Both the position numbers and the translations under genes were made by a program. Below the pieces are notes generated by a model. It was not told the DNA's origin. It saw only the letters and a list, made by a program, of their open reading frames with translations, and searched no databases. DNA of 49,732 bases. Source: Nitrospinota bacterium (GTDB lineage: Bacteria > Nitrospirota > Nitrospiria > Nitrospirales > UBA8639). Where the stretch lies: the NCBI GenBank assembly GCA_022572725.1, contig JACZVJ010000007.1:1-49732 (forward strand), read 5' to 3'. Shown here piece by piece: positions 12,284 to 30,720 of the stretch. The number at the start of each line of letters is the position of its first letter. Within the stretch, counting starts at the first letter, position 1.

Positions 12284-13192
12284 ATGGGAAGAAGGAATTT
12301 CATTCTTGGCATTCTTGCCACCCTCGTCATGTGCTGGGGGCAGGTGACTTGGGCCGAAGTTCGGCTTTTGAAGGGCCGGGAAGCCCGAGCCCTTCGTAGT
12401 GCCAAAACCATTTATGTGGACGTCACTGCCTCTACCTGGAAAACCCGGGGGAGACTCCTGTACGACATTGAAGGATCGGTTCGTGTGAAATTGGCCTCCG
12501 TTGGACTTACAGTGGTTCGCACGAGCCAGGAACCTCATTCGTTGACGCTTTTCGTCAATTATCGGGAGGAGCGTGGAGAACCATACGGGGCTAATCAATT
12601 CGGAACGGTGATGACGGGTGATTTTCGGGTTGACCACCACACGGCTGGTCCCGTTTTTGAAGTCACTGTTCAAGAAACCTCCCATCCCACTATTTCGGGA
12701 ACACCACCTTATTTGGATGCGTTACAGAATTTTCAGACAAACCCCTATTATTATTTCTTGGGTGACCTTATTTGGTGGCGGATGCAGAAGAATCATGAGG
12801 CCCATACGGTTTTCATTGAGGCCTTAAAGGAAAAAGTGGCCGCTGGCCAGGCCGATCGGATGGCCGACCCGTCCTTAGCCCGTTTTAAGAAGCCGGATCA
12901 TTACATGATACCTTCCCAGGAACTCTATATCCCGATTGCCATTAGGCGAACCGTTGCGGAGTTGGTGCACGCTAAGGATCCGCGCCTCGTGCCGGTCCTT
13001 TTTGATCTTGTGGAGTACCCTGATGTGTACGTTCGGGTTCAGGCTGTCAAAGCTTTGGGATCCTTTCAAGCTGTTGAGTCCCTCGCTCTCCTTCAAAATC
13101 TAATTTCTAACGATCCAGATATTGAGGTCCGTCAAGCCGCCGAGGCCGTTTTGGAGGCCTTCACGACCACCCCTTCTCCGAGCCCCCCGTAG
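12284..13192 (+). CDS. Exported HEAT-repeat protein
   Basis: The start at 12284 gives a typical signal peptide (RRNFILGILATLVMCWGQVTWA, cleavage before EVRLL; a Tat-like RR is present but no full Tat motif). A longer upstream frame only overlaps the previous gene. The middle (residues about 30-190) is a mixed domain with a conserved-looking block SAKTIYVDVTAS and a region rich in Tyr (NPYYYFLGDLIWW). The C-terminal third consists of two HEAT-type helical repeats (AIRRTVAELVHAKDPRLVPVL; VRVQAVKALGSFQAVESL; VRQAAEAVLEAF) that usually mediate protein contacts. It ends in a Pro/Ser tail. The family is not otherwise recognised. Confidence 0.78.
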   Translation: MGRRNFILGILATLVMCWGQVTWAEVRLLKGREARALRSAKTIYVDVTASTWKTRGRLLYDIEGSVRVKLASVGLTVVRTSQEPHSLTLFVNYREERGEPYGANQFGTVMTGDFRVDHHTAGPVFEVTVQETSHPTISGTPPYLDALQNFQTNPYYYFLGDLIWWRMQKNHEAHTVFIEALKEKVAAGQADRMADPSLARFKKPDHYMIPSQELYIPIAIRRTVAELVHAKDPRLVPVLFDLVEYPDVYVRVQAVKALGSFQAVESLALLQNLISNDPDIEVRQAAEAVLEAFTTTPSPSPP

Positions 13193-13200
13193 TCCTTTGG

Positions 13201-13230
13201 TTGACAAAAAAAAAGATGCCTTGTTACAGT
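13201..13230 (+). promoter_or_regulatory. Strong sigma70-type promoter for the IPT/TIG gene
   Basis: A perfect -35 TTGACA (13201-13206), an A-rich 18-base spacer and -10 TACAGT (13225-13230). It lies just after the HEAT-protein stop and implies an untranslated leader of about 140 bases before the start at 13380. Confidence 0.6.
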
Positions 13231-13379: not shown

Positions 13380-15053
13380 ATGCATGGGACTCATTGGTTC
13401 TCTTTCGCACTTTTTGTCTTAAGCCTTGGCTGGTCAACGCCTGCTTGGCCGGAGCTGTTTCCCGAAGCCGGTCCCCCTGGAATGACGGTCACGGTGGGGG
13501 GAGCGGATTTTGGGGAGTTCGAATCCACCGAGGTCAATCGAGTGGAGTTTGATGGGGTTCCTGCACTCATCCAATTATGGGAACCCGATATGGTCATGGT
13601 GAAAGTCCCCCTTGCCGCCAAAACAGGGAAAGTCCTGGTGATTAGTGGTGGGAAAAGGGTTGAAGTTGGGGAATTTTCCCTAAGGAAGGTTCAGATTACT
13701 AGACTCGTGCCTCCCAAGGCTGAGCCTGGGTCTGTGCTTGTGATTGAGGGGGAGAACTTTGGCAATACTGCGGGATCCCGAGATCCGAATACCATGTTTG
13801 GGGTGAATCAGGTGTTGGTGAATGGAATTCTCGCCCAAGTTCAGAGGTGGCGTCCAACCAAAATTGAAGTTCTGATTCCAGCCAATGCTACTTCGGGGGA
13901 GGTGGTGGTGCAACTTGCATCCTCAGACCCCTTGCCCGATGGCTCCTGTTGCGCCCCTGTCGATTATGCGGTGAGTAATCCCTTGAGACTAGAACTCATC
14001 CCCCATATTGACTTTCAACCCACCCACGGACCGATAGGGAGCAAGGTAGTCCTGAGCGGGCAGGATTTCGGAAAGGAAAAACCCGCCGGTCATGCGGTTT
14101 TTTTTAATGGGCACCCGGCGACAATCGGGGAGTGGTCTCAGCGCATCATTGTGGTCCATGTGCCTTTGAGTGCAACAAGCGGTCCGCTGACTTTGCTGCA
14201 GAATGGCCGTGAGCGTGATCTCGGCCGGTTTACAGTGGTGGAAAGCCAGGTGAAGGACGTGTTTCCTCTCCAGGGTCCTATCGGAACCATGATTCGCATC
14301 AAAGGGAAACATTTCGGCGTCTATTCGGAGAGCGGGTCTACAGCGTACTTTGCGGACTTTAACACCGGGGAAAATGCGGTGGAAATTGGGGGCGTTCCTG
14401 GTGTGATTCACCGGTGGCAAGATGACGAAATCAACGTTTGGGTTCCTTTTAGCGCCAAAAGCGGGCCTATTGTGCTTAAGCGGGGTGCCACTATTCCCAA
14501 ATCAGATGGGACTTGCTGCGCCCGCCAAGGTGTGGTGAGCGTGGAAGTGGGCTCCTTTACGGTCCAAACCCTAAAAGTGACCTCCTATTCCCCAACCTCT
14601 GCGGGGTTGGACGAAATCGTGACCATCAAGGGGTCCGGCTTTGGAGATTTTCTTAAAACCGCCGAGCCTACACGGTTTAGCTTGGTTCAAAAGGCCCATG
14701 TTTGGAAGAATTATCGTCTAGGTGCTGATGTTTCACGGAGCGAGGTGTTAATCAACGGATCTGCGGTTCAAGTGGTTTCCTGGACGGATACAGAAATCCA
14801 GGTTCGGGTTCCGAGAAGGCATGTATTTGGATTTGGGTTCCCGGGTGGATTTGCTTTGGATCCAACCATCGGGGAACTCGTCGTCCGGCGTGGTTCCTGG
14901 GATTTGTTGGAGAATGGAAAATGCTGTGCGCCCAAGCAGTGGGTCAGCGCGGTGGCCGGTCCGTTTACCATTTTGCGTCGAGGGTTACCGGACCCTGACT
15001 ATTTTAATGATCCTAACCCTCGAGAGCCTGGACACTATCCATTCGGTGATTAA
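13380..15053 (+). CDS. Exported IPT/TIG-domain protein with repeated GxCCA motifs
   Basis: The start at 13380 is chosen for its signal peptide (THWFSFALFVLSLGWSTPAWP) and the GGAAAGG about 10 bases upstream. The mature protein is a string of five immunoglobulin-like IPT/TIG domains. Each begins with a P-x-x-G-P/A-x-G-x-x-V-x-I-x-G-x-x-F-G pattern (for example AEPGSVLVIEGENFG, GPIGSKVVLSGQDFG, GPIGTMIRIKGKHFG, GLDEIVTIKGSGFG) and ends in a W-x-x-x-x-I-x-V-x-V-P strand. Three domains insert an Asp/Asn-Gly-x-Cys-Cys-Ala motif (DGSCCAP, DGTCCAR, NGKCCAP). Vicinal cysteines like these are unusual and might form a strained disulfide or bind metal. A cell-surface or periplasmic adhesion/scaffold role is inferred. 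Confidence 0.85.
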   Translation: MHGTHWFSFALFVLSLGWSTPAWPELFPEAGPPGMTVTVGGADFGEFESTEVNRVEFDGVPALIQLWEPDMVMVKVPLAAKTGKVLVISGGKRVEVGEFSLRKVQITRLVPPKAEPGSVLVIEGENFGNTAGSRDPNTMFGVNQVLVNGILAQVQRWRPTKIEVLIPANATSGEVVVQLASSDPLPDGSCCAPVDYAVSNPLRLELIPHIDFQPTHGPIGSKVVLSGQDFGKEKPAGHAVFFNGHPATIGEWSQRIIVVHVPLSATSGPLTLLQNGRERDLGRFTVVESQVKDVFPLQGPIGTMIRIKGKHFGVYSESGSTAYFADFNTGENAVEIGGVPGVIHRWQDDEINVWVPFSAKSGPIVLKRGATIPKSDGTCCARQGVVSVEVGSFTVQTLKVTSYSPTSAGLDEIVTIKGSGFGDFLKTAEPTRFSLVQKAHVWKNYRLGADVSRSEVLINGSAVQVVSWTDTEIQVRVPRRHVFGFGFPGGFALDPTIGELVVRRGSWDLLENGKCCAPKQWVSAVAGPFTILRRGLPDPDYFNDPNPREPGHYPFGD

Positions 15054-15059
15054 ACAGCA

Positions 15060-16058
15060 TTGACAGTGAATTCCTCTCCACTTGGCTCCCTCGGGATTGC
15101 GGCCTGGGTGCTCGGGCTATCCTTAGCGGGATGGCTTTCCCTTCCGGAAACCCTCCAGGCCACTGATTTCATCCTGACATCTTCTGAGCAGCAGAGCGGC
15201 ACAAAAGTGACGCTTTTGGACACCTTTTTCCTCAATTCAGAAAGAGGTTGGACGGTAGGGGCCGGGGGAACGATCCTTCATACACAAGATGGAGGAAAAA
15301 CCTGGAAGTCTGTTCCCCGTCGAACTAATGCCTTACTGACTGGCGTCTTCTTTGCGAGTAACGATCAAGGATGGGTGGTGGGGCAAAACGGAACCATTCT
15401 GCATTCCCAGGATGGGGGAAGGAAGTGGAGGCCTCAGGTGAGTGGAACGGCCTCGGCTCTGTTCGGTCTCTTTTTTTTCGATCCGTCCCATGGCTGGACT
15501 GTTGGTACTCGAGGAACCATTCTGCGAACCGTAGATGGTGGGCGCATCTGGGAAGACCAACACAGTGGAACGAGTGCGGATCTCTTCGGAATCCAATTTC
15601 TTGACCAACAGCAGGGCTGGGCCGTTGGTGCGCTTGGTGTCATTCTGGCAACTCGGGATGGTGGAGTACACTGGTCTCAGCAAAAAACGGACAGTTTCGC
15701 CACTTTTTTGGACGTGTTCTTAACGGATGGGCAGACCGGATGGGTCGTGGGGACCCAAGGAGCTATGTTTCACACGATTACCGGCGGTGAAAAATGGATT
15801 GATCGGACTCGTCCATGTGGATCACCTTGCATCAGGCCTGCCGATTTACTCAGAGTGCGTTTTACCAATCAGCAGTCGGGATGGGTTGTCGGAGAGCGGG
15901 GAGCCTTTCTCTACACATCTGATGCTGGGTTTACCTGGCTTGAGCCGGAATTGCCCAATCCTATTTCTCTTTATGGACTTGCCTTCCCCACTTCCCGTGA
16001 GGGATGGGCGGTTGGTGAGCAGGGTACCATCATCAAAATTATCGGGCCGCCTTCTTGA
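15060..16058 (+). CDS. YCF48-like seven-bladed propeller, exported
   Basis: A signal peptide (AAWVLGLSLAGWLSLPETLQA) is followed by seven copies of a GW-x-VG-x-x-G-T-I-L-x-T-x-D-G-G-x-x-W repeat (GWTVGAGGTILHTQDGG, GWVVGQNGTILHSQDGG, GWTVGTRGTILRTVDGG and four more). This is the signature of the YCF48/HCF136 photosystem II assembly-factor family and of BNR-type propellers. In non-photosynthetic bacteria these are exported scaffolds of unknown partner. It starts 6 bases after the IPT/TIG gene, probably as the second gene of that operon. The start codon is TTG at 15060 or GTG at 15066. Neither has a strong ribosome site, so coupling to the upstream gene is likely. Confidence 0.85.
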   Translation: MTVNSSPLGSLGIAAWVLGLSLAGWLSLPETLQATDFILTSSEQQSGTKVTLLDTFFLNSERGWTVGAGGTILHTQDGGKTWKSVPRRTNALLTGVFFASNDQGWVVGQNGTILHSQDGGRKWRPQVSGTASALFGLFFFDPSHGWTVGTRGTILRTVDGGRIWEDQHSGTSADLFGIQFLDQQQGWAVGALGVILATRDGGVHWSQQKTDSFATFLDVFLTDGQTGWVVGTQGAMFHTITGGEKWIDRTRPCGSPCIRPADLLRVRFTNQQSGWVVGERGAFLYTSDAGFTWLEPELPNPISLYGLAFPTSREGWAVGEQGTIIKIIGPPS

Positions 16059-27400: not shown

Positions 27401-27756
27401 TAAAAGGGGCCAAAGCTTCCAGGGAGCAAGGAACCGGCAGAAGAGCGTGGTCGTTTTCTTGTGTTTCGAGTAATAAGACTTTCCTGGAATAAAAACGTTA
27501 CCTAATGGGGAAACCTTTAGGAGGAGGGGTTCTAAGGCTTTCGTAATTTTGCGTAGGCCCGGTTGGTCAATTGCGCGTTTTTCTTCTGCTCACAGGGCTC
27601 GTGAACCTTGACTTCAGAAAATTCCGCTTGATAGACTTTCATACCTAAGTATCTGGTTTTATTTGATAATCTTACCATCACGCCGTCAAAATTTGGTCGG
27701 GAATTTCGTGGCAATGTCTTATCTGTAAGAAAATTTAGAATGTGGTAAGGAGGTTT
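27401..27756 (+). other. Gap upstream of the NHL gene with a candidate promoter
   Basis: No convincing gene is seen. TTGACT (27608-27613) and TAGACT (27632-27637), spaced by 18, may be a promoter for the NHL protein about 120 bases downstream. An open frame of 92 codons on the minus strand overlaps the NHL start and has no ribosome site. Confidence 0.3.
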
Positions 27757-30720
27757 ATGAAGGACTTTATGCGCATAGATGGCGATCTCGTGTCTGATTG
27801 GCTCAGCCACCGCTGCACCGCTTCTGGCTCGGAGGAGGAGTGGGGTGCAGGTGAAGGGGCTGGAGAAGAAAAACTACCCCCCGCGCCTATGAGTGTAAGG
27901 GCTGTTCCTGGGAATGGGTTTATCACAGTCTCGTGGAACGCTGTTCCGGATGTCTTGTACTACAACCTATACTTTTTAACCACCAAAGGCGTGGTGATCA
28001 AACCCTCCGAACTAACCCGTCCCTCTGCCGGTCCCGAAGATTTTATCCCGGTTATTGGTGTGACCAAGGAAAAGGGCAATTGTATCGAGGGTGCTTCCTG
28101 CCCATATGTGCATAATGACCTCGCTAACGGAACGTGTTACCACTATGTGGTCACGGCCGTGACGGCTGACGGGGAGAGCCCTGAATCTGAAGAGGCCATG
28201 ACGATTCCCTCGCCCTACCTTCCCATCATGGAGTTTGGGGTCGAGGGGGTTGATGACGGGGAATTCAAATCCCCGACTGGAATCGCCCTGGATGCAGAGG
28301 GGAATATTTACGTGGCTGACACGGATAACCACTCCATTCAAAAGTTTGATAAGGATGGAAAGTTTCTTGCCCGTTGGGGCGGGGATCCTGATTCTGAAGA
28401 AGGCACATTCTACTATCCCCGTGGGCTGGCGATTTCTCCAGAGGGCCATGTGTATGTGGCTGATAGTGGCAACAATCGGGTGCAAAAATTCGATCCCGAT
28501 GGGAACTTTATCCATGCCTGGGGGAAATTTGGTTTTGCCTGGCGAGGAGCGGAGGCCGGAAAGTTCGATGTGCCCTGGGGAGTAACCACGGATCAGCAGG
28601 GAAATCTCTACGTTTCGGATACCAGCAATGCGCGAGTGCAAAAATTCCAGCCGGATGGGACCCCACTCATAAAATGGGGTCGGGATGGGAGCTTTGACGG
28701 GGCATTCTTTTACCCCCGTGGCCTGGCCGTGGATTTTGTCGGGAATATTTACGTTGCGGATGAGGGAAACCATCGCATTCAGAAGTTCGATTCCCGGGGT
28801 AATTTTTTGATCAAGTGGGGGAAAGAAGGCACTGGGCCTGGGCAATTTAAATCTCCTTGGGGGGTGGCCTGTGATCCGCTCGGGAATGTGTATATCGTCG
28901 ATAGCGGGAATCACCGAATTCAAAAGTTTGATTCCAATGGAACGTATCTCTGTTCATGGGGGAATCGTGGGCTGACCGAAGGGCAGGTGAACTTCCCATC
29001 CGGCATTGCCATCGACAAAGAAGGCCGAGTCTATGTGGTCGATAGTGGTAACTATCGCGTGGTGAAGTATGTTCCAACAGAAGAAGAACTCGCTCGGGGA
29101 AGGGAGCAGCAAAAGAAAGCCGAAGAAAGCGCGACAGGCCCCATCGCAGCAACTCTTGCAGTGAAACCGGGTGATACTGAAGCCATACTCAGTTGGCTAG
29201 AGATCCCTGGAGCTGTTGCCTACAATTTATACTTTAGCACGAGTCCCGAACTCACGACTCAAACGTCAACGAAAATGGAAGGGGTTACGAGCCCCTATAC
29301 GCACACAGGGCTGACCAATAACACGCCCTATTATTATGCGTTGACCAGTGTCGATGAGAATGCAGAGGAAGGCCCGCTTTCTGCGGAACAAGTTGTCACT
29401 CCAATTCTTATCGATTTGGCCGCTCCCCAAAATCCCGATCTTGTCGTGAATCACGGGGCGTTCATGACCAATTCACTGGATGTCGTAGCCACCATTTCAG
29501 CCAAGGACCTGGATACCGGGGTAGCGGGCTACTTTATTTCGGAAAACCCCTTGACTCCCAGTGCCACCCTGCCAGGTTGGATTGAAGTGGAGCCTGAATA
29601 CAAATTTGGAGCGACTATTCCCTTTACGGTCTCTCCGGGTGATGGCACCAAGACCATTTATGTGTGGTTTAAAGATGTCGGAAACAATGTTTCGGTTCCG
29701 GCCAGTGCGAATATCCTTCTTAATACTTCGGGGTATGTCTTTACCGGCACATGGGGAAAACCCGGAAGGGGAGCCTCCCTTCTTCACGGGGGGGAATTTA
29801 TAAGTCCCCTGTACGGAGTTGCCATTGACCGTCAAGGCTCTGTTTTCGTCGTGGATAATGGGAATAACCGCATTCAGAAGTTTGAGAATACTGGGAATTT
29901 CATCCTTCTTTGGGGGAATTTCGGTGCAGGCAACGGCAATTTCCACAACCCCTCCGGAATCGCGTGTGATGCGAAGGGTGATGTGTACGTGGCAGATTCG
30001 AACAACCACCGTATCCAAAAATTTGACGGCAAACTTGGCCATTACCTTTTGAAGATGGGCGGACGGGGGAATGGGGAGGGGCAATTTAACTCGCCTTGGG
30101 GAGTTGCAGTGGACCGTGTACGCGGGTATATCTACGTCGTGGACAGCGGGAATTTCCGTATTCAAAAATTCGAGGAAGATGGCGAGTTTATCATGCAGTG
30201 GGGGAGTTTTGGAAACAATGACGGCCAGTTTTATTTTGCTCGTGGGATTGCCGTCGACCAGGCCGATGGGTCGGTCTATGTTGTGGACATGGGCAACCAC
30301 CGGGTCCAGAAATTCGACACCAGTACCAATGTGCTCCCGCAGTTACTTGCCAAGTGGGGTGGAGGAATCGGCCCAGGGCATGCCAGTAGTGTCCAAGCCC
30401 AGGAACCCGGCCAGTTTCGATCACCCTGGGGGATTGCTGTTGATGGAAACAGTGACGTGTTTGTCACGGATACGGCCAATCAGCGGGTCCAAAAATTTGA
30501 CCGAGAGGGCAATTTTATCACTCAGTGGGGAGGCTTTGGGAACAGCGGGGGACATTTCAATTTTCCCTATGGTGTTGCTGTTGACGTCCGAGGAAAGGTT
30601 TTTATTGTGGATAGCGGAAATATGCGCCTTCAGCAATTCGTCGCGGCCGAGGAAGCTGAAGAACACCTCCTGGAGGGCACGGAGACCTTAACTGCTCTTC
30701 CAGAAAGCCTGCAAAAGTAA
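27757..30720 (+). CDS. Large NHL-repeat protein with fibronectin-type domains
   Basis: About 987 residues. GGAGG stands 3 bases before the ATG at 27757; the ATG at 27769 has AAGGA and is an alternative. Order of parts: a short acidic N-terminus; a fibronectin-III-like domain (APMSVRAVPGNGFITVSW); six NHL repeats (pattern F-x-x-P-x-G-I-A-x-D-x-x-G-N-x-Y-V-A-D-x-x-N-x-R-I-Q-K-F) forming one six-bladed propeller; a second FN3 domain (AILSWLEIPGAVAYNLYFS); an Ig-like domain (NSLDVVATISAKDLDTGV); then six more NHL repeats. NHL propellers bind proteins or ligands and are often surface proteins, but no signal peptide or membrane segment can be seen here. Export, if any, would be non-classical or from an unseen start. 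Confidence 0.88.
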   Translation: MKDFMRIDGDLVSDWLSHRCTASGSEEEWGAGEGAGEEKLPPAPMSVRAVPGNGFITVSWNAVPDVLYYNLYFLTTKGVVIKPSELTRPSAGPEDFIPVIGVTKEKGNCIEGASCPYVHNDLANGTCYHYVVTAVTADGESPESEEAMTIPSPYLPIMEFGVEGVDDGEFKSPTGIALDAEGNIYVADTDNHSIQKFDKDGKFLARWGGDPDSEEGTFYYPRGLAISPEGHVYVADSGNNRVQKFDPDGNFIHAWGKFGFAWRGAEAGKFDVPWGVTTDQQGNLYVSDTSNARVQKFQPDGTPLIKWGRDGSFDGAFFYPRGLAVDFVGNIYVADEGNHRIQKFDSRGNFLIKWGKEGTGPGQFKSPWGVACDPLGNVYIVDSGNHRIQKFDSNGTYLCSWGNRGLTEGQVNFPSGIAIDKEGRVYVVDSGNYRVVKYVPTEEELARGREQQKKAEESATGPIAATLAVKPGDTEAILSWLEIPGAVAYNLYFSTSPELTTQTSTKMEGVTSPYTHTGLTNNTPYYYALTSVDENAEEGPLSAEQVVTPILIDLAAPQNPDLVVNHGAFMTNSLDVVATISAKDLDTGVAGYFISENPLTPSATLPGWIEVEPEYKFGATIPFTVSPGDGTKTIYVWFKDVGNNVSVPASANILLNTSGYVFTGTWGKPGRGASLLHGGEFISPLYGVAIDRQGSVFVVDNGNNRIQKFENTGNFILLWGNFGAGNGNFHNPSGIACDAKGDVYVADSNNHRIQKFDGKLGHYLLKMGGRGNGEGQFNSPWGVAVDRVRGYIYVVDSGNFRIQKFEEDGEFIMQWGSFGNNDGQFYFARGIAVDQADGSVYVVDMGNHRVQKFDTSTNVLPQLLAKWGGGIGPGHASSVQAQEPGQFRSPWGIAVDGNSDVFVTDTANQRVQKFDREGNFITQWGGFGNSGGHFNFPYGVAVDVRGKVFIVDSGNMRLQQFVAAEEAEEHLLEGTETLTALPESLQK

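Follow-up and report, generated by a model that had tools for sequence, protein, structure and literature searches.

Proteins built from TIG (IPT) domains, PF01833, are represented by CGTase, through its domain D, and by plexin and Met, through their IPT domains. The exported protein described here resembles these systems by its five TIG stretches and by structure matches, and differs from them by a lengthened last hairpin carrying Cys-Cys in domains 2, 4 and 5. The product of the next gene resembles Ycf48/HCF136, the photosystem II assembly factor. The propellers are alike, with TM values of about 0.78-0.80 to Ycf48 structures (Foldseek), whereas identity to these structures is about 20-24%, the propeller studied here carries a C-x3-C motif, and its lineage is not known to be photosynthetic. 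A third comparison, restricted to the way of working, is with vicinal-disulfide proteins such as the arabinofuranosidase 1wd4, in which adjacent loop cysteines are conserved (described in PMC12102755). The same paper indicates that vicinal disulfides can bind ligands, stabilise structure or switch conformation, and that what they bind is in many cases a sugar ring, through its plain face. The protein studied here differs in having three repeated sites per chain, with a disulfide that is a predicted one. The literature searched, with most subscription journals outside the search, yielded no paper on Nitrospira with an IPT/TIG domain or a vicinal disulfide, and none joining any two of vicinal disulfide, TIG domain and Ycf48; for Nitrospira together with Ycf48, the passage of the one paper found concerns other bacteria.

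The window, that is, the whole stretch of DNA that was analysed, is 49,732 nucleotides long. The TIG gene, its parts and its partner gene are as follows:

13380 to 15053, plus strand: exported five-TIG-domain protein, 557 amino acids from the ATG at 13380
13380 to 13448, plus strand: signal-peptide-like N-terminus, residues 1-23 (by eye from the sequence)
13449 to 13691, plus strand: TIG domain 1, without cysteine (Pfam, AlphaFold2 model, domain profiles)
13692 to 14003, plus strand: TIG domain 2, CC 190/191 (13947-13952) in block PLPDGSCCAPV (alignment, model, profiles)
14004 to 14249, plus strand: TIG domain 3, without cysteine (AlphaFold2 model, domain profiles)
14250 to 14573, plus strand: TIG domain 4, CC 379/380 (14514-14519) in block SDGTCCAR (alignment, model, profiles)
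14574 to 14984, plus strand: TIG domain 5, CC 515/516 (14922-14927) in block ENGKCCAPK (alignment, model, profiles)
15060 to 16058, plus strand: partner gene, Ycf48-like beta-propeller (PF14870, 166 bits; AlphaFold2 pLDDT 94.2; Foldseek)

The TIG domain boundaries were set by us. Upstream in-frame starts are present for the TIG gene, the ORF being open from 13263. Pfam finds PF01833 in five stretches of the protein (E 3.3e-35, 120.4 bits against a gathering score of 20.9). With NCBIfam, the domain model TIGR03437 scores 58.8 against a cut-off of 29.05, and one equivalog stays far below its cut-off. Neither Pfam (TIG only) nor NCBIfam holds a model that names the protein, and no second PF01833 gene was found in the window's genome. 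The AlphaFold2 model, built with 55 sequences, is all-beta, with a mean pLDDT of 85.7 and a pTM of 0.66. Together with structure matches to domain D of CGTase and to the IPT domains of Met and plexin, it indicates an Ig-like beta-sandwich fold; these matches cover domain 5 little. For residues 79-186 of the model, the CGTase matches reach Z 12-14 over about 81-88 residues. A profile of the whole protein matched CGTase and other TIG domains weakly among solved structures (best E 5.5e-7). The gene product is best read as a rod-like exported protein made up of five TIG (Ig-like) domains and conserved in the order Nitrospirales. It is a protein of ordinary TIG fold with unusual, strictly kept cysteine hairpins. 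A sigma-70-like site before the gene (13201-13230) was set aside, two such sites being found in all as compared to 2.3 expected in shuffles. Elsewhere in the window, a 992-residue NHL-repeat protein (27742-30720) shows a possible fibronectin type III stretch.

The ORF translation bears out the original prediction that three of the five domains carry the motifs DGSCCAP, DGTCCAR and NGKCCAP. These three pairs account for all cysteines of the mature part. For six cysteines scattered by chance over 534 residues, the probability of obtaining three separate adjacent pairs is 8e-7. Strict conservation is a stronger argument than this estimate for the reality of the pattern. We aligned 85 family sequences, including that of the window, after removal of identical duplicates and of the non-family TIG ORFs L103-L105. 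The sequences come from part of the matching genomes, two of them (L055 and L079) are cut by contig ends, and the lowest pairwise identity is 39.5%. All six cysteines are present in every one of the 85, and no sequence has a seventh from residue 24 on. Loss of the motif in orthologues, which was to have spoken against its significance, is therefore not what is seen: in each of the three pairs, the adjacent cysteines are conserved together in 85/85 sequences. Both cysteine codons, TGT and TGC, are in use at all six positions (each 35 to 50 of 85), showing that the DNA has drifted and the residue has not. The block as first described, Asp/Asn-Gly-x-Cys-Cys-Ala, holds in part. The cysteine pair is constant, whereas flanking residues vary and the invariant core is only G-x-C-C, its glycine being found in 85, 85 and 80 of the 85 sequences at the three sites. 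The distance from an invariant glycine to the first cysteine is exactly 17 residues at all three sites in 85/85.

The suggestion that the repeated block is functional is well supported by its conservation at equivalent positions. The same cannot be said of the lipid or heme attachment proposed with it, as there is no recognised signature. A covalent lipid or heme on the cysteines was brought up by the original prediction alone and is highly improbable: the pairs lie in internal loops, the blocks contain no CxxCH, and an N-terminal lipobox role does not apply. To our knowledge, an internal CC has no lipobox role and matches no recognised lipid or heme attachment signature.

Other proteins hold soft metals through vicinal thiols, for instance MerA through its C-terminal pair. 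On that precedent, the CC tips could be binding sites for Cu(I), Zn, Hg or another soft metal, with a role in trafficking or protection. Aspartates are indeed kept near two of the sites (D183 and D187 in 84/85 each, D508 in 85/85). However, in the 85 sequences the three loops lack any invariant His or Met and any additional Cys, and no metal-handling gene occurs among the identified neighbours, which makes metal binding unlikely.

The AlphaFold2 model places every CC pair within the loop that joins the final two predicted strands of its domain (TIG domain 2, 4 or 5), or where that loop ends. In model numbering, CC 167/168 falls between strands 150-158 and 172-175, CC 356/357 between strands 339-349 and 359-372, and CC 492/493 between strands 474-483 and 497-508. 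The loop placement that structure prediction was to examine is thus supported, the CC blocks being less certain parts of the model (pLDDT block means of 78, 84 and 83). With the ordinary Ig topology, which we take to apply, the CC loop would be at the domain end facing the preceding domain. Pairwise alignment of the profiles of the three domains keeps the CC in register (D2/D4 E 1.5e-26, D2/D5 2.7e-23, D4/D5 5.9e-21). As judged from this alignment, domains 2, 4 and 5 most likely arose from a single CC-bearing domain through intragenic duplication. The register also suggests that each site acts inside its own domain.

This last point bears on the idea that the CC pairs are cross-linked to one another, within or between chains, so that the rod is stapled or copies are joined in a fibre or lattice. 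Six is an even number and none of the cysteines is spare in the 85 sequences; moreover, TIG rods such as the plexin IPT domains are strung together end to end. Still, sites that align as repeats fit use within each domain better, and the steric limits of adjacent cysteines speak against links between pairs. We consider such cross-links rather unlikely.

The reading that we put first, and only tentatively, is a TIG scaffold of the envelope in which vicinal disulfides lock three hairpins and which cooperates with the Ycf48-like propeller. Domains 2, 4 and 5 would each present a lengthened hairpin between their last two strands, with G-x-Cys-Cys at its tip. Each CC pair would close on itself as a vicinal disulfide in the cell envelope. 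Such closure is suggested by the adjacency of the cysteines, their repetition within single domains, and the finding that no cysteine is left over and that no other conserved metal ligands are present. The closed pair would give a stiff exposed tip contacting a partner, which may be a glycan, a protein or the neighbouring domain. That the CC tips contact a glycan is a reasonable guess and no more, prompted by the carbohydrate-handling proteins among the TIG structures matched (CGTase, Bacova_02650). The TIG rod would form a scaffold, and the propeller would work alongside it in the assembly or docking of an envelope complex. Some observations make vicinal-disulfide closure less certain: no match to VKOR or DsbB was found in the window's genome, although it has four matches to Thioredoxin_4 (DsbA-like), and the CC blocks are less certain parts of a model whose pTM is 0.66. 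A search with the 36-residue stretch around the first CC matched no PDB chain.

The propeller gene begins 7 bases after the TIG gene. Its product is a seven-bladed BNR propeller of the Ycf48 kind, PF14870 being over its cut-off and the top Foldseek rows being Ycf48. The NCBIfam Ycf48 equivalog NF010237 gives 148.1 bits against a cut-off of 326; the protein is therefore called Ycf48-like and not Ycf48. It is the only Ycf48-like gene of the window's genome. The propeller gene is next on the same strand in 78/85 TIG copies. A propeller at E<1e-100 accompanies the TIG gene in 51 of 52 relatives, G025 having fragments of both, as compared to 0/7 relatives without the TIG gene. Among these seven, three have no propeller and four, of family f4, have a distant form at 2e-52 or weaker. 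Both the linkage and the co-occurrence count for a scaffold working with the propeller. Other neighbours of the pair are RsmE, DnaJ and DnaK downstream, YjgF upstream and, in some relatives, a HEAT-repeat gene upstream. In the window, this HEAT-repeat protein, with a signal-like start, is encoded just upstream of the TIG gene (12284-13192); it is recognisable in some relatives only.

The C-x3-C of the propeller (residues 253/257, 15816-15830) is located in the loop before the sixth blade. It is kept in 70 of 78 rows, and raises the question of redox chemistry. The CC pairs could be redox switches, or form an electron or thiol relay with this motif; vicinal disulfides can serve as switches, as stated in PMC12102755. 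Of the eight rows without C-x3-C, one (L048) is truncated where its contig stops; the other seven are propellers of family f2 that truly lack the motif, yet their TIG partners keep all CC pairs. A redox role is, in our estimation, distinctly unlikely.

Going one step further than the scaffold reading, the propeller and the TIG rod with its three vicinal-disulfide hairpins could constitute an order-specific Nitrospirales envelope module. It would serve to assemble or dock a complex in the membrane or on the outer surface, much as Ycf48 assists the assembly of photosystem II. We regard this extension as speculative and rather unlikely. The two genes occur in almost every member sampled, their thiol pattern is rare and completely conserved, and none of the models names their function. 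They are a good candidate for an undescribed envelope part, and the fixed pattern of three CC pairs makes the question of function amenable to experiment.

Seven second copies of the TIG gene (L023, L066, L093, L094, L096, L099 and L102) were found in genomes that also carry the main copy. They are 58.5 to 85.0% identical to it and keep all three CC pairs. No propeller gene is present downstream of them within 1.1 to 6.3 kb of sequence. Therefore, the function of the CC pairs is a property of the TIG protein itself, independent of this neighbour, which counts against a strict two-protein mechanism. Comparison of the neighbours with one another and by eye revealed no constant partner gene of the second copies. 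A large protein that looks by eye like DabA/DUF2309 lies beside three of them, a frame that looks Sua5/YciO-like beside five (L066, L093, L094, L099 and L102), and a related exported protein of 620-845 amino acids near four.

Nitrospirales include nitrite-oxidising and comammox Nitrospira. Members of the TIG family were detected in 52 of 59 related genomes. At the scale of the class, 127/146 genomes match at E<=0.001, 16 of them outside the order and weakly. A profile search reaching over the phylum Nitrospirota retrieved 107/295 genomes at E<=1e-20; of these, 104 belong to the order and three do not (G074, G076 and G080, 1e-22 to 1e-32). Among the 20 unmatched genomes listed, order members are G100, G135, G159 and G038; since these 20 already extend to genomes graded 'same phylum' (168 more lie beyond), the order is taken as 104/108.

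The comparison set consisted of 24 other TIG-bearing ORFs (23 loci), comprising other TIG proteins inside the order and ORFs outside it. It covers all three out-of-order phylum matches and 11 of the 16 out-of-order class genomes, leaving out G061, G065, G067, G071 and G081. None of the 59 merged TIG-like segments of these ORFs contains a cysteine; a CC occurs elsewhere in the chain, outside the TIG segments, in 8/24. The CC block is no general trait of TIG domains nearby and, at the scale of the phylum, Nitrospirales was the only order in which the CC-bearing TIG family was found. Six short peptide patterns taken out of the window, which reach close relatives only, gave 27 loci in a scan of genome contigs, all labelled Nitrospirae, Nitrospirota, Nitrospirales or Nitrospira. 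In a plasmid collection, nine records match the TIG protein at 24-30% identity, all from other organisms.

A link to nitrite oxidation was considered and not used. TIGR03479 matches all 59 relatives at E<=0.001 and none above the curated cut-off. Many relatives have long NxrA-like frames among the matches listed (~1150 amino acids, E near 1e-55 or better); the four f4 genomes do not, nor do some carriers of the TIG gene (for example G037 and G055). Multi-copy nxr genes are often missing from draft assemblies. The f4 genomes G038, G041, G044 and G047 are order members without the TIG gene and the close propeller, and have the distant Ycf48-like form only. Finally, an F-C-C-G stretch outside the TIG segments is common to the large comparison ORFs L124, L125, L129, L132, L134, L135 and L137.
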